From Maribacter sp. MMG018 (GTDB lineage Bacteria; Bacteroidota; Bacteroidia; Flavobacteriales; Flavobacteriaceae), in contig NZ_JAGJEC010000002.1 of the NCBI RefSeq assembly GCF_018100785.1, forward strand, positions 806,001-870,000: DNA of 64,000 nt. The letters are read 5' to 3'. A model generated the notes under the pieces. The model did no database searches. It was given only the letters and a program-made list of their open reading frames with translations, and was not told the DNA's origin. The number at the start of each line of letters is the position of its first letter. The first letter of the stretch is position 1. Positions 43,290-52,513 of the stretch are shown here, one piece after another. The position numbers and the translations under genes are program-made.

Positions 43290-43898
43290 TTATTTTTTTC
43301 GTTTCATCAATTCTGTTTCGATATCTTTTAAAGTAAACCCTTTTGCTTGTAAAAGCATAAGATAATGAAACATCAGGTCGGCACTTTCATAGATGAACAG
43401 TTCATCATTGTCATCCATAGCTTCAATAACCGTTTCTACAGCCTCTTCCCCAACTTTCTGGGCCACTTTATTGATACCTTTTTTAAACAATGACGCTACG
43501 TAAGACTTACTTCCGTCTGCAGATGTTCGCCGTTGTTCTATAGTAGCTTCCAATTCTGAGAAAAAACCAAAATTCGAACTATTTTCTTGTCCCCAACATG
43601 TAGCTGTTCCCGTATGGCAGGTAGGACCCACAGGATTTACCATAATTAAGAGCGAATCATTGTCACAGTCGTTCTTAATATCCACCAGATTCAAAAAGTT
43701 ACCGCTCTCTTCTCCTTTGGTCCATAACCTTTTTTTAGAACGGCTGTAGAAGGTAACCTTACCCGATTCTTGGGTCTTCTTTAATGCTTCGGCATTCATA
43801 TAGCCTAGCATTAATACATTTTTAGTACGTGCATCTTGAATAATTGCAGGTACCAAACCATCGCTCATTTTCTCCCAATTAGGCGTATTAAAATTCAT
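43290..43898 (-). CDS. hisIE: Bifunctional phosphoribosyl-AMP cyclohydrolase / phosphoribosyl-ATP pyrophosphatase
   Basis: The 202-residue fusion performs steps 2 and 3 of histidine synthesis. HisI part (about 1-110): metal motifs DCDNDSLL and CHTGTATCW. HisE part (about 115-202): SKSYVASLF and GEEAVETVIEA, with ESADLMFHYLMLL. It is the last gene of the his operon and is followed by a terminator. Confidence 0.96.
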   Translation of the reverse strand: MNFNTPNWEKMSDGLVPAIIQDARTKNVLMLGYMNAEALKKTQESGKVTFYSRSKKRLWTKGEESGNFLNLVDIKNDCDNDSLLIMVNPVGPTCHTGTATCWGQENSSNFGFFSELEATIEQRRTSADGSKSYVASLFKKGINKVAQKVGEEAVETVIEAMDDNDELFIYESADLMFHYLMLLQAKGFTLKDIETELMKRKK

Positions 43899-43962
43899 AG
43901 TACTATTTTTTTAATGTGCTCTTAGCACGAATTTTGAAGGCATTCCTATATCAAAACAAGCC

Positions 43963-44718
43963 TTACAACCTGACCGGAATACCGTTTTCCTTTAATGTTT
44001 CTTTTAATTCTCTTATTCCTATTTCCTTAAAGTGAAATACACTTGCCGCTAAAGCAGCATCCGCTTTTCCTTTAATAAAAGTGTCGGTAAAATGTTTCTT
44101 TTTTCCAGCACCGCCAGAGGCAATAATGGGAATATTCAATTCAGAGGATAACTTTGCCAAAGCTTCATTGGCAAAGCCATCTTTGGTACCGTCGTGATCC
44201 ATAGAGGTAAATAGTATTTCTCCTGCCCCCCTTTCCTCAACTTCTTTGGCCCATTCAAACAGCTTACGTTCCGTAGGAACTTTACCCCCTACCAAGTGAA
44301 CGATCCATTCCCCTTTAATCATTTTCGCGTCTATGGCGACCACAATACATTGCGAACCAAATTTGGAAACAAGATCATTGATCAACTGTGGGTTTTTAAC
44401 GGCCGATGAATTTATAGACACCTTATCCGCTCCATTTTTAAGCAATATGTCTACATCCTCTATTGAAGAGATTCCTCCCCCAACGGTAAAAGGAATATTT
44501 ACCTTTTCTGCCACATGGTAGACCAAATCCGCTAAGGTTTTCCGTTTTTGTTCCGTAGCCGAAATATCCAAAAACACTAACTCGTCGGCCCCTTCTTTAC
44601 TATATATTTCTGCTAACTCCACTGGGTCTCCGGCATCCCGTAAATCCACAAAATTAACTCCTTTTACGGTTCTCCCGTCTTTAATATCTAAACAGGGAAT
44701 GATTCTTTTTGCTAACAT
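43963..44718 (-). CDS. hisF: Imidazole glycerol phosphate synthase cyclase subunit
   Basis: The 251-residue TIM barrel has catalytic D11 ([10 protein letters not shown]) and the second Asp in CIVVAIDAK near 130. Phosphate-binding VGGGISS and IIASGGAG are readable. With HisH it makes imidazole glycerol phosphate and AICAR. It lies 94 bp after the DinB gene and 64 bp before hisIE in the operon. Confidence 0.97.
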
Positions 44719-44812
44719 AATTTTTTATAATCGATAGAAAACCCGAACTGTTCTGTACTTATTTAATGAGACATCAAAACTTAATGTCAAATAATTACGT
44801 CGTATGGTTAAT

Positions 44813-45337
44813 CTATTGGCTTTTCTTATTCTTAATGTTCAGGTCAATGTCACTATAAAACCCTAAATCCTTATTTTTCAGCTGTTTTACCCAAAAGGCA
44901 ATTTGCCCTGTATGGTATGAATAATGTTCTACTGCATGGAGAATGACCCCTACACCAGAGAAGGTAAATCCTTGAACCGATCTAACTTTCAACAGTTGAT
45001 CGGTATTAGCATCAAAAATAATGCGTTTTGCCGTATCTACCGTTTCTACCAACTTATCTAAAACTTCTGTTTTAGTAAGACCGCCCGTTGCCGAAAATTC
45101 CGCATCCCGTTGTCTGACATCTTCATTTTCACCTAAGGACGATATGATATATTGCGAAATATTTCCACATAAATGCAATATCAGATTGGCGATACTATTC
45201 AGGGATTCGTTCGGTTTTAACCAAAGTTCCTCTTCAGAAACATCCACCAAACTTTTCTGTATCATACGCGTACTTTCATCCATTCGATACAGCGCATTTT
45301 TCACTAACTCTTCAATTAATTGAGCCTCTTTATCCAT
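44813..45337 (-). CDS. DinB-like four-helix protein inside the his operon
   Basis: The 174-residue helical protein matches the DinB/DUF1572 metal-binding fold: [13 protein letters not shown] supplies the first His, and [14 protein letters not shown] near 134-147 the other two. DinB proteins often act as thiol S-transferases or related enzymes; the activity here is unknown. It starts within the last 8 bp of hisA, so it is part of the operon although it has no known histidine role. Confidence 0.85.
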
Positions 45338-46058
45338 GGCTTAAAATATATGTCTCCAGCTGTTTTAAACTGATTCTGTTTTCATAAATGGCTTTTCCTA
45401 TGATGGTAGCTTCACAACCAAGATCTGCCAACTTTGGTAATTCGTCAAAAATGGATATACCTCCGGATGCTATTAATTTTAGGTTTTCCGTTTGATCCAA
45501 TATTCTTTGGTACAGCTCAAAGGAAGGTCCTTCTAACATACCGTCTTTACTAATATCGGTACAAATAACATATTGTATGCCCTTGGCCTGGTAAGCCTTG
45601 ATAAAAGGAATTAATTCTTCTTTTGATTCCTCTTGCCAACCAGAGACGGCTACCTTTTCATCTAAGGCATCGGCCCCCAATATTATTTTGTCCGCACCAT
45701 GTTTTTCTATCCAACCAATAAAAGTTTCTTTGTCTTTTACGGCAATACTTCCGCCGGTAATCTGTTCGGCCCCACTCTCAAAGGCAATTCTTAAATCCTC
45801 ATCCGTTTTTAATCCTCCTCCAAAATCAATTTTCAAGTTGGTTCGAGAAGCTATTTGTTCTAAAATTTTATGGTTAACAATATGTTTGGATTTTGCCCCA
45901 TCTAAATCTACCAAATGTAAATATTGAATACCATGCGCCTCATATTCCTTGGCTACTTCTAAAGGGTTTTCATTGTATATTTTTTTGGTATCATAATCCC
46001 CTTTTGAAAGGCGTACGCACTTACCGTCTATGATATCTATGGCTGGTATAATTCTCAT
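45330..46058 (-). CDS. hisA: Phosphoribosylformimino-AICAR ribotide isomerase
   Basis: The 242-residue TIM barrel has catalytic D8 ([15 protein letters not shown]) and the second Asp in [22 protein letters not shown] and LIASGGIS are the phosphate sites. It converts ProFAR to PRFAR. Its start is one base after the GNAT gene stop, and it overlaps the DinB gene. Confidence 0.97.
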
Positions 46059-46481
46059 TTATTCTAAAATTTGCTTATCAATTGACATCCATAATGCTGA
46101 ATCTCCTATTTTATTAAATCCGTACCGCTCATACAGTTTGTGGGCATCTTTGGTTTTTAATGCTATCGTTTTCAGATTTCTTATAATAGGGTCATCTAAC
46201 ATAAATGTTACAATTTTTTTACCGAAACCCTGACCTTGAAATTTATCGAGGATAATAACATCCATAATATATCCAAAGTAGACGTAGTCGGTTACTACCC
46301 TAGCGAAACCAATTTGTTCATTGTCTGTGGTGTATATACCAAAACAGTACGAATGTTCAATGGTTGTTTTGACATCTTCGATAGTTCTATTATTTCCCCA
46401 ATAAGAATTTGCGATAAACCCCTGTATGGCTCCAACATTTAATAAACTTTTATCTTTTGATATAAAGTAATTTGGCTTCAT
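46059..46481 (-). CDS. GNAT acetyltransferase inside the his operon
   Basis: The 140-residue protein is a single GNAT domain: IGFARVVTDYVYFGYIMDVI is strands 3-4, and FQGQGFGKKIVTFML is the acetyl-CoA loop (Q/RxxGxG/A). KLYERYGFNKIG ends the fold. The gene overlaps the hisH stop by one base (TAATG) and ends directly before hisA. The substrate is unknown; cotranscription with his genes may be incidental. Confidence 0.9.
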   Translation of the reverse strand: MKPNYFISKDKSLLNVGAIQGFIANSYWGNNRTIEDVKTTIEHSYCFGIYTTDNEQIGFARVVTDYVYFGYIMDVIILDKFQGQGFGKKIVTFMLDDPIIRNLKTIALKTKDAHKLYERYGFNKIGDSALWMSIDKQILE

Positions 46482-47062
46482 TACATTTTTAAAAAAATTT
46501 CTAAAATCTTTTCACCAACATCACTAGATTTCTCTGGGTGAAATTGCGTGCCATAAAAATTATCTTTTTGTAGTGCCGCGCTATAGTTTAGTCCGTATGA
46601 ACACTCAGCTATTGTTTCGGCACATAATGGCGCGTAAAAACTATGCACCAGGTAGATATGTTCGTTCTCAGCAACCCCCTTGAACAAATCTGACCTAAGG
46701 TTCGTAATTTGATTCCAACCTATTTGCGGTACTTTAACCTGGTCACTAAATTTTATTACATCCACATTAAAAATCCCCAGTCCTTTTGTATCACCTTCTT
46801 CAGACGAATTACACATTAATTGCATACCAAGGCAAATGCCCAAAACTGGTTGTTTTAGCGTTGGTATAATCTTGTCCAGACCAGTGTCCCTCAATTTTTT
46901 CATGGCGCTGCTGGCCTCGCCTACCCCTGGGAATATGACTTTATCCGCAGTTTGTATCTCTTGTATATCATTACTTAACTCCGCATCAAAACCCAAACGT
47001 TTTATGGCGAACTTAATGCTCTGAATATTGCCAGCACCGTAATCTATTATTACTATTTTCAT
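46481..47062 (-). CDS. hisH: Imidazole glycerol phosphate synthase glutaminase subunit
   Basis: From the ATG at 47062 (MKIVIIDYGAGN) the protein has 193 residues; the frame extends upstream to 47125 into hisB without conservation. The nucleophile is C77 in GICLGMQLM, and the triad His and Glu are in QFHPEKSS. It supplies ammonia to HisF. Confidence 0.96.
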   Translation of the reverse strand: MKIVIIDYGAGNIQSIKFAIKRLGFDAELSNDIQEIQTADKVIFPGVGEASSAMKKLRDTGLDKIIPTLKQPVLGICLGMQLMCNSSEEGDTKGLGIFNVDVIKFSDQVKVPQIGWNQITNLRSDLFKGVAENEHIYLVHSFYAPLCAETIAECSYGLNYSAALQKDNFYGTQFHPEKSSDVGEKILEIFLKM

Positions 47063-47081
47063 TGAACTTTTCTCTATAACA

Positions 47082-48224
47082 CTAAAGCATTCCTTTGGTA
47101 CTTGGTAATACCATTTTTTCCACATCTCTTTTTACCGCCATTTTTATACTTTTTGCAAAAGCTTTGAAAATAGCCTCTATTTTATGATGTTCGTTAGTAC
47201 CTTCCGCCTTAACGTTCAAATTTGCTTTGGCACCATCGGTAAACGATTTAAAAAAATGATGAAACATCTCGGTGGGCATATCCCCTACTTTTTCTCTTTT
47301 AAATTCTGCGTCCCAAACCAGCCAGTTTCGCCCTCCAAAATCGATGGCTACCTGTGCCAAACAGTCATCCATGGGCAAACAGAAACCATAGCGCTCTATT
47401 CCAAGTTTATTACCCAAGGCGTTATTGAACACTTCTCCTAGGGCAATACCGGTATCTTCTATTGTATGATGTTCATCTACTTCTAGATCACCATTCACCT
47501 TAATTGTAAGGTCCATTTGACCATGACGGGCCAATTGATCCAACATATGATCAAAAAATGCCAGTCCGGTATTAATCTCACTTTTTCCCGTACCATCAAG
47601 GTTCAGTTTTATGAAAATATCCGTCTCATTTGTTTTTCTATGGTACTCCGCCGTTCTATCATTCAGTTTTAAAAACTCATAGATTTTTTCCCAGTCATTG
47701 TTTTCCAAGGCGATAACATCGACCAGTTCCGTTCTCTTTACCGTAATTTCATCGGTCCCCAAATTGGTGTTGTCGTTTATAAAAATACCTTTGGACCCAA
47801 GATTTTTGGCCAACTCCATATCCGTTAAACGGTCTCCGATTACGAATGAATTTTTCAGGTCATAGTCATCAGAAAAGTATTCGGTCAACAATCCTGTTCC
47901 AGGTTTTCTGGTGTTGGCATTTTCATGAGGAAAAGTACGATCAAGAAAAACCTTGTTGAACACTACGCCTTCGTTCTCAAAAGATTTTAGAATAAAATTA
48001 TGTACCGGCCAAAAGGTATCTTCAGGAAAAACATCGGTGCCCAAACCATCTTGGTTAGTGATCATAACAAGTTCATAATCCAACTCCTTAGCTATTTTAC
48101 CTAAATATGTAAAGGCCTTCGGGTAGAAGATCATTTTCTCGAAAGCATCTATTTGCTCATCAACTGTTTCTTTGATTATGGTACCGTCCCGGTCTATAAA
48201 CAATACACGTTTTTTGTTTTTCAT
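47082..48224 (-). CDS. hisB: Bifunctional histidinol-phosphatase / imidazoleglycerol-phosphate dehydratase
   Basis: The 380-residue fusion has an N-terminal HAD phosphatase (about 1-170; LFIDRDGTI with both Asp, later [12 protein letters not shown]) and a C-terminal IGPD domain (about 190-380; [27 protein letters not shown], and [17 protein letters not shown] with the manganese histidines). It performs steps 6 and 8 of histidine synthesis. It begins 4 bp after hisC. Confidence 0.97.
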
Positions 48225-48228
48225 GCTT

Positions 48229-49272
48229 TTATGATAATGCTTTTAAAGCCTTGATTAATTTTTCGTTTTCATTGGATGTACCCACGGTAAACCGCAAGGT
48301 GTTTTTACATAAAGGTTGCGTGGTCCTATTTCTCACTACAATACCTTTTTCCAACAACTGGTTGTACCGTTTAGTGGCATCATCGACCTTCGCCAGTATA
48401 AAATTAGCATCTGTCGGAAAAATATCGGTCACAAAGGAAACTTGCGATAAAGCTTTGTTCAGTTTCTCTCGTTCATGTAAAATATTGGCAACTTCTTGCT
48501 GTACCCCTTTTTGATCTACAACTCTAGAAATAGCCTTTTGCTGCGTTAATTCGTTTACGTTATAAGGTGGTTTTATCTTATTTAAGATCGCAATAATTTC
48601 TTTGGAGGCCATACAGATTCCTAAGCGTATACCAGCCATACCGTATGCTTTGGACAAGGTTTGTGTAACAACAAGATTGGGGTATTCCGTTAATTTTGAA
48701 GCCCAACTATCCTGTGATGAAAAATCTATATAAGCTTCGTCTATTATTACTAGCCCTTTAAATGATTCTAAGAGCTGTTGGATTCTATATGCCGAAAAAC
48801 TGTTTCCCGTTGGGTTATTTGGGGAACATAAAAACAGTAATTTGGTGCGATCGTCTGTACTTTCTAAAATTTTGGAAGTATTGGGCTGAAAATCATTATC
48901 CAACAGCACTTCCTTATTTTCTATTAAGTTGATACCGGACAACACCTTGTACATACCATATGTTGGCGGTAAAGTAATAATATTGTCTTCTTTAGGTTCA
49001 CAGAAAGCCCTAAACAACAAGTCTAACACCTCGTCGCTACCATTGCCCAAAAGAATATTTTCTTCCTTAACGCCTTTCTGATCCGCCAATATAGATTTTA
49101 AGCCTCTTTGCTGGGGATCTGGATAACGGTTAACCCCATTATCATACGGGTTTTCGTTGGCATCCAAAAAAACCATGGTAGAACCGTCAGATACATACTC
49201 ATCTCTTGCCGACGAATACGGACTAAGTCCTTTTACGTTCTCTCTTGTTATTTTATCTAGGTCAAAACTCAT
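48229..49272 (-). CDS. hisC: Histidinol-phosphate aminotransferase
   Basis: The 347-residue fold-type I PLP enzyme has [19 protein letters not shown] and the Schiff-base lysine in [16 protein letters not shown]. It starts 27 bp after hisD. It transaminates imidazole acetol phosphate. Confidence 0.96.
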
Positions 49273-49299
49273 TACTTCTATACTGCTATCTAACCATTT

Positions 49300-50583
49300 C
49301 TATTTTATACTTTTCAGCCTAAGTGTTACCGCATTTTTATGCGCCTGTAAACCTTCAGCTTCCGCCATTGTTTCTATTGCTTTCCCAATAGCGGATATAC
49401 CTTCTTTGGAGATTTTTTGAAATGTCATGCTTTTCATGAAACTATCTAGGTTTACTCCACTGTATTGCTTTGCATACCCATTGGTCGGCAATGTATGGTT
49501 CGTTCCCGAAGCATAGTCGCCGGCACTTTCCGGTGTATAGTTACCTATAAAAACAGATCCCGCATTTTGAGTGTTCTCTACATAAAAATCTTCATTGGCC
49601 ACACAGACAATATAATGCTCCGGACCATATTCATTGATCAAGTCTATTGCCGTACGGTCATTTTCTACATATATAAGCTTACTGTTGGCAATGGCCTGTT
49701 GGGCAATTTCCTTTCGCGGTAGATCATCTAACTGTAACGCCACCTCTTTTTCTACGGCATCTATCATAATTTTTGAAGTGGAAACCAAAATAACTTGACT
49801 ATCGATGCCATGTTCCGCTTGACTCAATAGATCAGAAGCCACAAAAGCCGCATTCGCAGTGTCATCGGCAACAACCAATAACTCTGAAGGTCCGGCTGGC
49901 ATATCTATGGCCACCCCGTACTTGGTAGACAGTTGTTTTGCCACCGTAACATACTGATTACCGGGACCGAAAATTTTATAAACTTTTGGAATGGACTCCG
50001 TACCAAATGTCATACCGGCAATGGCCTGTATACCACCGACTTTCACAATTTTGGTAACACCGCATAAATTTGCCGTGTATAGAATAGCGGGATTCAATTT
50101 CCCTTTTTTATCTGGAGGAGAACATAGTACAATTTCTGAACAACCGGCTATAGTGGCTGGTATGGCCAACATTAAAATGGTAGAAAACAAAGGTGCCGTA
50201 CCACCAGGAATATACAGCCCTATTTTTTGAATAGGCCGTTTTTCTTGCCAGCAAGAAACCCCTTTGGTCGTTTCTACTTCAACACGATCTGTCTTTTGTG
50301 CTTTATGAAACTTTTCAATATTGCTTTTGGCCAATTCAATAGCCACTTTTAACTCATTGGAAACCAAATCTGTAGCCTCTTGTATTTCATCGTTAGAAAC
50401 CAAGATGTTCTCCAAGGTGACTTTATCAAATTGTTCGGTATATTTTTGTAATATACTATCCCCATTTGCTTTAACTTCCTCAAAAATACCGGTTACCAAT
50501 TCTTCAATATCGGCCACAGTTTGTGTGGGACGTTTAAGAACGTCTTTCCAATCCTCTCTATTTGGATTATATATTTTATTCAT
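49300..50583 (-). CDS. hisD: Histidinol dehydrogenase
   Basis: The ATG at 50583 (MNKIYNPNREDW) gives 427 residues. Hallmarks are WQEKRPIQKIGLYIPGGTAP, the zinc and active-site region SQAEHGIDSQVILV, and GPEHYIV with SGTNHTLPT, which include the catalytic Glu-His pair. It oxidises histidinol to histidine with two NAD+. It begins 20 bp after hisG. Confidence 0.97.
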   Translation of the reverse strand: MNKIYNPNREDWKDVLKRPTQTVADIEELVTGIFEEVKANGDSILQKYTEQFDKVTLENILVSNDEIQEATDLVSNELKVAIELAKSNIEKFHKAQKTDRVEVETTKGVSCWQEKRPIQKIGLYIPGGTAPLFSTILMLAIPATIAGCSEIVLCSPPDKKGKLNPAILYTANLCGVTKIVKVGGIQAIAGMTFGTESIPKVYKIFGPGNQYVTVAKQLSTKYGVAIDMPAGPSELLVVADDTANAAFVASDLLSQAEHGIDSQVILVSTSKIMIDAVEKEVALQLDDLPRKEIAQQAIANSKLIYVENDRTAIDLINEYGPEHYIVCVANEDFYVENTQNAGSVFIGNYTPESAGDYASGTNHTLPTNGYAKQYSGVNLDSFMKSMTFQKISKEGISAIGKAIETMAEAEGLQAHKNAVTLRLKSIK

Positions 50584-50603
50584 CTCTTTTCCTATAAAGC
50601 CAA

Positions 50604-51461
50604 TTACAGCACCATTTTCTCTATCGGGCACACTAAAATACCTTCTGCACCAGCGCTTTTTAACTCATCAATGACCTCCCAGAATTTATCTTTGTTTATT
50701 ACCGTATGTACCGAGCTCCATCCCTCATCGGCCAAAGGTAATACCGTAGGGCTACGCATACCGGGCAATAATTTTAAGATTCCATCCAACTTTTCATTAG
50801 GAGCGTTTAACAACACATACTTAGAACTTCTGGCCCTCAGTACAGATTGAATCCTAAACTGTAATTTTTGCAACAAATCTCTTCTTTCAATAGATATTTT
50901 TGGGGATACGGCCAATACAGCCTCACTGGTGAGCATTACTTCCACTTCTTTTAAATTATTTTTAAAAAGTGTACTTCCACTACTGACAATGTCACAAATC
51001 GCATCGGCCAAACCAATATTGGGTGCAATCTCTACAGAACCGTTGATTATATGCAAATCTGCATTTACCCCTTTTTCTTTCAGATATGTAAGAACTGTAT
51101 TCGGATAAGAAGTTGCTATTCTTTTGCCTTCCAAATCTTTTACCGAATTATATTGTACAGATTTGGGGACCGCCAATGATACCTTACATTTAGAAAACCC
51201 AAGTTTTTCGGCTATCGATATATCCTCGCCTTTTTCTATCAATACATTTTCGCCAATAATGGCAATATCGACTACGCCATCTCTTAAATACTGGGGAATA
51301 TCCCCATTTCTAAGGTAAAACACCTCTATCGGAAAATTTCTGGACGAAGCTTTTAACTGATCCTTTCCATTATCAATAGAAATTCCGCAGTCTTTAAGAA
51401 TTTGAAGGGACTCTTCGTTTAACCTTCCTGATTTTTGAATAGCAATCCTAATTTTTGTCAT
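50604..51461 (-). CDS. hisG: ATP phosphoribosyltransferase, long form
   Basis: From the ATG at 51461 (MTKIRIAIQKSGRL) the enzyme has 285 residues, so it is the long form with the C-terminal ACT-like regulatory domain (PGMRSPTVLPL, SAGAEGILVCPIEKMV) for histidine feedback inhibition. The catalytic part contains RLNEESLQILK, DVAIIGENVL-like VDIAIIGENVL and ICDIVSSGSTLFKNNL. It commits ATP and PRPP to the pathway and is first in the operon, 157 nt after an attenuator leader ORF start. Confidence 0.97.
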   Translation of the reverse strand: MTKIRIAIQKSGRLNEESLQILKDCGISIDNGKDQLKASSRNFPIEVFYLRNGDIPQYLRDGVVDIAIIGENVLIEKGEDISIAEKLGFSKCKVSLAVPKSVQYNSVKDLEGKRIATSYPNTVLTYLKEKGVNADLHIINGSVEIAPNIGLADAICDIVSSGSTLFKNNLKEVEVMLTSEAVLAVSPKISIERRDLLQKLQFRIQSVLRARSSKYVLLNAPNEKLDGILKLLPGMRSPTVLPLADEGWSSVHTVINKDKFWEVIDELKSAGAEGILVCPIEKMVL

Positions 51462-51499
51462 TGTCTTTTTGTTGTGCTTAAACAATCAAACCGAAGTTT

Positions 51500-51536
51500 A
51501 AAAAGAAAACCCGTTTGATTGCTCAAACGGGTTTTT
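51500..51536 (-). terminator. Attenuator terminator of the his operon
   Basis: On the minus-strand transcript AAAACCCGTTTGA pairs with TCAAACGGGTTTT (13 bp, GCAA loop) and runs into CTTTTT. It lies between the leader peptide gene and hisG. Its left arm can instead pair with leader RNA (see the attenuation finding). Confidence 0.9.
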
Positions 51537-51564
51537 AAATATGTTGCACTACTACAATACATTC

Positions 51565-51618
51565 CTACCTCGCCTGAGCGTGTGTATGGAAATGATGATG
51601 TGTAGTTCTGTTTCTCAT
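51565..51618 (-). CDS. hisL: His operon leader peptide, 17 residues
   Basis: The minus strand from 51618 reads MRNRTTHHHFHTHAQAR followed by TAG. Five of seven residues from 7 to 13 are His, so ribosomes would stall there when charged tRNA-His is scarce. The ORF is followed by the terminator hairpin and then hisG. It is too short to be found by length alone but the His run placed before a his operon makes it convincing. Confidence 0.92.
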   Translation of the reverse strand: MRNRTTHHHFHTHAQAR

Positions 51619-51697
51619 TATGTGGTAAATGTAAAAGGTATTTTTGATATCACAAAACAAAAGTTAAAAATGAAACAAAAAGTTTTTACTGCGTGTT

Positions 51698-52513
51698 TTA
51701 GTTGTTTCCTAATATCAATGGTAGACCAGAGTCACCACTACCCACCACAACTACTTTTGCATTGGGCGATTTGGCAAGTTCTAGAGTAGCGTCAATACCT
51801 TTGTCCTGCAATATTTTATCTGTTAACGAAGCACTTAGTATTTTGTTCGCATCGGCCTTACCCTGCGCTTCTATACGTACCTTTTCTGCTTCTTTTGAGG
51901 CCGTTACCAGTCTAAATTCATACTCTAAAGACTCCTGTTCTTGCTTTAGCTTTCTTTCTATAGCCTCTTTTATGGTATTTGGCAAGGTAACGTCACGTAC
52001 CAATATTTCATTTAATTGAATGTACTGGCCGTCAACAATCTTTTTTGTTTCCTCATAGATCTCTGCCTGAATAGCATCTCTTTTACTGGAATACAATTGC
52101 TCAGGTGTATATCTACCTACAACGCTTCTTGCTGCACTACGAATGGCAGGTAACAAAATACGTTCTTTGTACATTTCACTTTTTTCTTTGTGTAATTTGC
52201 CAAGGTCTTCATATTTGGGCTGAAACCAAGTAGAAGCCTCTAATTGAATGTCTAGACCATTGCTAGAAAGTACTTTCATTTTTTCGTAAACTTCTTGCTG
52301 GCGAACCTCATATACGAATACCTTGTTCCAAGGTGCAACAATATGAAAACCTTCTCCCAATGGTGGCTCGTCGGTTACGACTCCTCCACCAAAAGTCTTA
52401 TATAGCACTCCCGCTTCTCCCGAACCTATGGTTACGGCAGATTTTGAAATTAAAATAATGACGAGAACTAATGCGAAGATTACTGGTAATGCGATTTTTG
52501 GTAATTTGTCCAT
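51698..52513 (-). CDS. Prohibitin/SPFH domain membrane protein
   Basis: The 271-residue protein has one N-terminal membrane helix (6-27), an SPFH/band 7 domain (about 28-190; GEGFHIVAPWNKVFVYEVRQ, RDVTLPNTIKEAIERKL) and a coiled-coil-rich segment (190-235; KLKQEQESLEYEF). Prohibitins form large ring assemblies that stabilise membrane proteins. It begins 10 bp after the large VWA membrane protein gene. Its 3-prime end lies 79 bp before the his leader peptide start. Confidence 0.93.
   Translation of the reverse strand: MDKLPKIALPVIFALVLVIILISKSAVTIGSGEAGVLYKTFGGGVVTDEPPLGEGFHIVAPWNKVFVYEVRQQEVYEKMKVLSSNGLDIQLEASTWFQPKYEDLGKLHKEKSEMYKERILLPAIRSAARSVVGRYTPEQLYSSKRDAIQAEIYEETKKIVDGQYIQLNEILVRDVTLPNTIKEAIERKLKQEQESLEYEFRLVTASKEAEKVRIEAQGKADANKILSASLTDKILQDKGIDATLELAKSPNAKVVVVGSGDSGLPLILGNN

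Follow-up and report, generated by a model that had tools for sequence, protein, structure and literature searches.

A Probable Ribosome-Mediated Attenuator of the his Operon in Maribacter and Related Leaders Across the Bacteroidota

Organization of the his Leader Region

The window analysed here, the whole 64,000-nucleotide stretch of Maribacter sp. MMG018 DNA, contains a complete his operon in the order hisG-D-C-B-H-(GNAT)-A-(DinB-like)-F-IE (Table 1). Its HisG protein is 98% identical to that of Maribacter thermophilus, the closest named one. Two further genes reside within the operon: a GNAT gene (46059-46481) between hisH and hisA, and a DinB-like (DUF1572) gene (44813-45337) between hisA and hisF. 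The upstream neighbour is a Band-7 gene (51698-52513), located on the same strand as the leader.

The leader is a short open reading frame (ORF) for the peptide MRNRTTHHHFHTHAQAR, in which His codons are clustered, occupying residues 7, 8, 9, 11 and 13 (five of 17). A conserved intrinsic terminator (51535-51506) lies between this ORF and the first gene of the operon. A preliminary description, made from the sequence alone, had placed a minus-strand leader and a 13-bp terminator before hisG, and translation and the terminator scan confirmed all of its coordinates. Shuffles yielded 1.1 sites on average (sd 1.0) in the scan of 51000-52500, so the single site detected there is not significant on its own. 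Folding of the leader RNA, a check proposed in that description, gave a z-score of -5.2 for leader and terminator together, with none of 200 shuffles as good; the terminator contributes much of this.

Upstream of the leader, the motif TTTG is found 19 nt before a -7-like box and is what we take to be a -33 box. The consensus at the -7-like box is TTTTAnTTTTAC in 78 aligned relatives, and transcription from it would begin a few nucleotides upstream of the leader ATG. The -7 consensus TAnnTTTG is the one given in PMC9723704. A scan for sigma-70 promoters found sites that were not more numerous than in shuffles.

Table 1. Features of the his leader region and operon (positions are those of the window).
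Feature	Position	Strand	Basis or remarks
Candidate -33-like box TTTG, Bacteroidetes-type promoter	51653..51656	-	By eye; putative
Candidate -7-like box TACATTTA, TAnnTTTG type	51626..51633	-	By eye; putative
Leader ORF MRNRTTHHHFHTHAQAR, then stop	51565..51618	-	17 codons, translated from sequence; no Shine–Dalgarno-like 4-mer
Possible leader hairpin P1, 5′ strand	51599..51606	-	Fold, moderate covariation; His codons enclosed
Sensing codons His7-His9 and His11 (CAT CAT CAT TTC CAT)	51586..51600	-	Read from sequence
Antiterminator 5′ strand GCTCAGGCG(A)GGT	51567..51579	-	Within last leader codons and stop
Linker hairpin P3	51537..51564	-	Leader stop to terminator; stacked within antiterminator
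Possible leader hairpin P1, 3′ strand	51548..51556	-	Overlaps P3
Antiterminator 3′ strand ACCCGTTTGAGC	51521..51532	-	Terminator left arm and two loop bases
Intrinsic terminator stem-loop	51506..51535	-	Perfect 13-bp stem, 4-nt loop
U-rich terminator tail CTTTTT	51500..51505	-	Sequence, terminator scan
hisG	50604..51461	-	TIGR00070; first gene of the operon
hisD, hisC, hisB, hisH, GNAT, hisA, DinB-like, hisF, hisIE	43290..50631	-	Other his operon genes

Terminator and Antiterminator Pairing

An antiterminator of 9 bp with two G-U pairs had been proposed. This pairing exists as 9 contiguous pairs between GCTCAGGCG (51579-51571) and CGTTTGAGC (51529-51521), but it is incomplete: past a bulged A (51570), GGU at 51569-51567 continues on ACC at 51532-51530, which results in a total of 12 pairs. 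As these pairs occupy the terminator left arm, the two structures are mutually exclusive. The duplex has an energy of -18.9 kcal/mol, compared with a shuffled-leader mean of -8.4, and none of 200 shuffles was as good.

A further refinement is that the antiterminator also holds the linker hairpin, P3. In the alignment of 78 relatives, 79.4% of the P3 cells are paired and its covariation score exceeds that of all 500 shuffles. Partner swaps gave no clear result (10/73), and single folds favoured the hairpin in 18/75 loci, and in 6/77 outside the family. P1, a candidate protecting hairpin that was persuasive on visual inspection, is possibly a weaker competing leader hairpin, with support that is moderate at best: 76.4% of its cells are paired in the alignment, a value equalled by 1/500 shuffles, and single-sequence tests were passed by 15/76 loci with shuffles and 10/76 with swapped partners (14/77 and 13/77, respectively, outside the family). 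Support is weak for P2, a small inner hairpin, with 81.5% of cells paired, a level reached by 12/500 shuffles, and fewer pair types than in shuffles. The consensus fold of the alignment predicted the terminator alone.

Distribution of the Leader and Terminator

The comparison covered 229 hisG upstream regions drawn at the level of genus, family, order, class and phylum, part of them best matches and part hand-picked from match tables. The sample is weighted towards the family of the window (101 loci). The loci are related, so the counts below are not independent events. A leader was scored when at least three His fell within seven residues no more than 400 nt upstream of hisG.

Such a leader precedes hisG in 206 of the 229 Bacteroidota loci, with at least four His in 158, and at least one locus has it in 40/54 family labels. 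Twenty of the 23 leader-less loci are spread across 14 labels without any leader, including f84 (0/3) and f87 (0/2); the remaining three are one each in f1, f21 and f91. The leaders of L042 and L044 were found once the 400-nt limit was applied. The same scan returned 35/1120 shuffles and 8/224 reverse complements; the five loci without a placed hisG were omitted from this control and count as misses in the 206/229. An intrinsic terminator follows 182 of the 206 leaders and none was detected for the other 24. In a set of 80 named relatives, which partially overlaps with the earlier genomes, the leader is present in 79, with YHH replacing HHH in the single exception, and the terminator motif CCCG(T/C)TTGA in all 80. 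The pattern, seen across much of the phylum, suggests that most relatives in the comparison have similar switches ahead of their own his genes.

A genome search with a model of the element, with 150 of 2989 candidates scored, gave one strong match (E 1.6e-29). Of the 18 others, the best (0.001) was the antisense of the element itself, and none of the remainder had an E-value better than 0.012; many of the weaker matches span the terminator end only.

Conservation and Covariation of the Antiterminator

The pairing test took the leader segment that starts at the first His codon and ends 15 nt beyond the stop, and matched it to the terminator's left arm and loop. The background was 200 dinucleotide-shuffled versions of each leader, with a cut-off of p ≤ 0.05. 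The antiterminator was better than shuffled leaders in 155 of the 182 loci with both leader and terminator. Within the family this was the case for 98/100 loci, and outside it for 57/82 despite the unlike sequences there; the pairing was non-significant in the other 25. Taken by family label, the median locus was significant in 20/36. In a stricter test, whereby terminators were swapped in from other families with one locus per label, the native pairing ranked in the best 5% for 8/36 labels and in the best 10% for 15/36.

The alignment consisted of 78 Flavobacteriaceae, obtained from the 100 loci with leader and terminator by a filter at 93% identity. In it, 92.4% of the antiterminator cells are paired, compared with at most 51.4% when the strands are slid. 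Cells changed on both sides number 24 against 10.5 in shuffles, and 21 of these 24 belong to the outermost pair. The number of pair types shows no excess (10 compared with 9.5 in shuffles; 247/500). The terminator arm is near-invariant in the Flavobacteriaceae and most antiterminator pairs hardly vary.

The outermost pair is the exception to this. Its 3′ base resides in the terminator loop and is unused by the terminator, yet covaries with the leader base. The two bases match (GC, UA, AU or GU) in 49 of the 78 sequences and are unpaired in 29, while shuffles gave a mean of 34.9 and a maximum of 47, with 49 reached in 0/2000. This covariation is the strongest single item for the antiterminator, and it is strong but short of formal proof because sequences of common descent can outscore shuffles even in the absence of structure. 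A covariation analysis that broke the 9-bp pairing had been named beforehand as the result that would count against it; the analysis upholds the pairing instead.

Shine–Dalgarno Absence and Variant Architectures

The 4-mers GGAG, GAGG, AGGA and GGGG are absent at -18 to -5 from the predicted starts of all 206 leaders. They occur in 169/4120 (4.1%) shuffled upstream sequences, and in the same interval before the aligned hisG start, also as predicted, in 22/206 loci.

A distinct arrangement is seen in the 17 loci labelled f93 (L145, L150, L153, L155-L158, L162-L165, L167 and L180-L184). Their leaders before hisG contain a mean of 9.1 His, and up to 12, with an intrinsic terminator in only one of the 17. 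The f93 linker is C-rich and G-poor, with a C/G ratio of 2.74 compared with 0.80 in f1 linkers; upstream of the f93 leaders the ratio is 1.19 over the nearest 100 nt and 0.92 at greater distance. Rho-dependent attenuation is a possible candidate mechanism for these loci. It can be proposed tentatively, and with appreciable doubt, that ribosome-mediated his attenuation is ancient and widely distributed among histidine-making Bacteroidota, with leaders that are free of Shine–Dalgarno sequences, and that in f93 a C-rich, G-poor tract replaces the terminator as a candidate Rho-dependent attenuator. If true, such leaders would demand close coupling of transcription and translation in Bacteroidota.

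Other variants were noted. Within the family of the window, one genome (L071) has a leader, MINSSAHHRFYTIAQAR, with two adjacent His only, below the cut-off, which suggests a weaker or decaying switch. Six leaders (L127, L142, L144, L168, L212 and L213) end in HSS or HHSS and carry a hairpin over the stop codon, e.g., TTCCTC/GAGGAA. The terminator was not found in L127, L168 and L213, and those called in L142, L144 and L212 pair non-significantly with the leader; these loci perhaps have another architecture. The N-terminal part of HisG in L197 (f108) and L203 (f104) is 61 and 66% identical to that of the window, while four further f104 loci give 46-49%. The leader ends of L197 and L203 (SCTQTS and TCSQARW) are flavobacterial-looking, and the genomes are placed in other classes. 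These two cases look like an operon transferred together with its switch, or contamination.

Alternative Explanations

The leader ORF may code for a functional His-rich peptide, e.g., a metal-binding one, with the terminator being a separate element. The pattern HHHFYTC(S/A)QAR is indeed common in the family. However, a CAG codon has become TAG in 8/101 family loci, which cuts the peptide to ...HHHFHIHA or similar. Although these loci thereby lose the last three residues, the subsequent bases, GGCGAGGTA, stay the same; these bases pair with the terminator, and the C-to-U change itself forms a U-G pair within the antiterminator segment. Since the early-stop loci retain the GGCGAGGTA bases, this argues that the leader end is conserved for its RNA. 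Other families retain the His codons and mostly not the remaining peptide, and a functional peptide is thus very unlikely as the explanation.

A directly sensing RNA, such as a T-box or riboswitch, could also control the terminator, with the ORF being incidental. The leader is structured and has alternative folds, as would be expected of such an RNA. Nonetheless, no T-box or riboswitch was among the Rfam matches, either in the window at gathering score or in 51450-51700 at E ≤ 10, and clustered His codons recur in families of unlike sequence. This reading is highly improbable. Rfam as a whole gave 0 gathering-score matches in the window, and the His_leader model, which we take to be RF00514 for the enterobacterial his attenuators, is missing from the 20 sub-threshold hits (E ≤ 10) for 51450-51700.

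It is extremely unlikely that the leader acts chiefly through translation, by reinitiation or coupling into hisG, and not through the terminator. The 24 leaders for which no intrinsic terminator was detected would fit such a role, but the terminator is perfect at this locus and is retained after the great majority of leaders (182/206), and the covariation of the antiterminator points to the terminator as the target.

That a random His-rich ORF happens to lie beside an ordinary terminator of the Band-7 gene has a practically negligible probability. The Band-7 gene is on the same strand, and the one terminator-like site in this region matches the shuffle expectation, but position, sequence and pairing are conserved across the family and beyond; on the sequences compared, the antiterminator and the His-rich leader are not chance. 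The chance, functional-peptide and T-box/riboswitch readings were set aside after the conservation, early-stop and Rfam tests.

Proposed Mechanism

The element is very probably a ribosome-mediated transcription attenuator of the his operon, which would respond to histidine. The attenuation logic of the preliminary description is supported by the pairing compared with shuffles, by the alignment and by the covariation of the outermost pair. A short RNA would be translated from an ATG near its 5′ end, without a Shine–Dalgarno sequence. A shortage of charged His-tRNA would stall the ribosome at His7-His9, leaving the segment 51579-51567 free. This segment would capture the terminator's left arm and loop bases, with P3 stacked inside, before the right arm exists. 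Once the antiterminator has formed, RNA polymerase would continue into hisG. With ample histidine, the ribosome would instead reach the stop codon and cover 51579-51567, allowing the terminator to form.

The geometry agrees with this scheme. If the ribosome edge is assumed to lie 12 nt beyond the A-site codon, a ribosome on the sensing codons His7 and His9 would leave the antiterminator strand exposed. At His13 most of that strand would lie under the ribosome, and at the stop the strand would be covered.

Predicted folds give further detail. When the ribosome is stalled at His7 or His9 and transcription has advanced as far as the terminator loop, the antiterminator and linker hairpin are predicted (-23.3 kcal/mol); for a ribosome on the stop codon, the terminator alone remains (-18.2 kcal/mol). 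For the complete leader with a stall at His7, the lowest-energy prediction is the terminator and linker hairpin (-28.2 kcal/mol). As this combination is the more stable one, antitermination must be kinetic, and a kinetic decision is usual for attenuators. Without a ribosome, RNA that extends to the terminator loop is also predicted to favour the antiterminator (-24.0 kcal/mol), and thus termination without translation is not clearly predicted; the full ribosome-free RNA favours P1 and the terminator (-34.6 kcal/mol).

Relation to Known Attenuators

The mechanism of enterobacterial-type his attenuation by a stalled ribosome is set out in PMC9413887. The Maribacter element is alike in its His-codon leader ORF, antiterminator, terminator and stalled-ribosome logic. 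It differs in the absence of a His_leader match, in having five His codons in 17 residues, in an antiterminator strand that lies in the last leader codons and in the lack of a Shine–Dalgarno-like site. Leader peptides with three to five consecutive His codons are described in the same source for Firmicutes (Bacillus cereus group, Eubacteriales and Erysipelotrichales), likewise with a terminator and antiterminator before his operons, in another phylum.

The preliminary description had been unsure whether such attenuation had been described in Bacteroidetes. A 2021 transcriptome study of Flavobacterium psychrophilum (PMC9723704) reports strong clues that leader peptides ahead of amino-acid operons act by attenuation. 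It also names a 5′ element before hisG that is conserved, including in other Flavobacteriaceae genera, and lacks an Rfam match. The F. psychrophilum element shares position before hisG, family, conservation and the lack of an Rfam hit with that of Maribacter, and is probably the same element. The available text of PMC9723704 gives no sequence, pairing or distribution for it and does not tie attenuation to it by name; base-level pairing was not found there.

In Bacteroides thetaiotaomicron, some long 5′ UTRs contain short ORFs that recall attenuation leader peptides (PMC7366714), and the Bacteroid-trp motif (RF01692) is a table entry as cis-regulatory in PMC2864571; his is unmentioned in the accessible parts of both sources. 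A 2010 paper (PMC2965389) states that, to its knowledge, leader-peptide systems had not been shown outside Proteobacteria and Actinobacteria, with two exceptions: the atypical ermC and the Firmicutes case that the paper itself reports.

The literature search, which covered listings and main-text passages of open papers on attenuators in Bacteroidetes, Bacteroides, Bacteroidota and Flavobacteria, found no base-level description of this switch. Vitreschak et al. in 2004 reportedly predicted some attenuator candidates in Bacteroidetes/Chlorobi. The probable Maribacter his attenuator is of a classic kind that is already known, and the element is not wholly new because PMC9723704 reports a hisG 5′ element and attenuation clues. 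Not seen in the literature searched were the base-level pairing, the phylum-wide spread, the leaders free of Shine–Dalgarno sequences and the possible Rho-type variant.

Biological Significance

The element provides a base-level, testable attenuator for a phylum in which such regulation is little described in the literature searched. It could form an Rfam family and aid the annotation of his operons. A working switch free of a Shine–Dalgarno sequence would show that, in Bacteroidota, ribosome loading occurs early enough for the ribosome to follow RNA polymerase.
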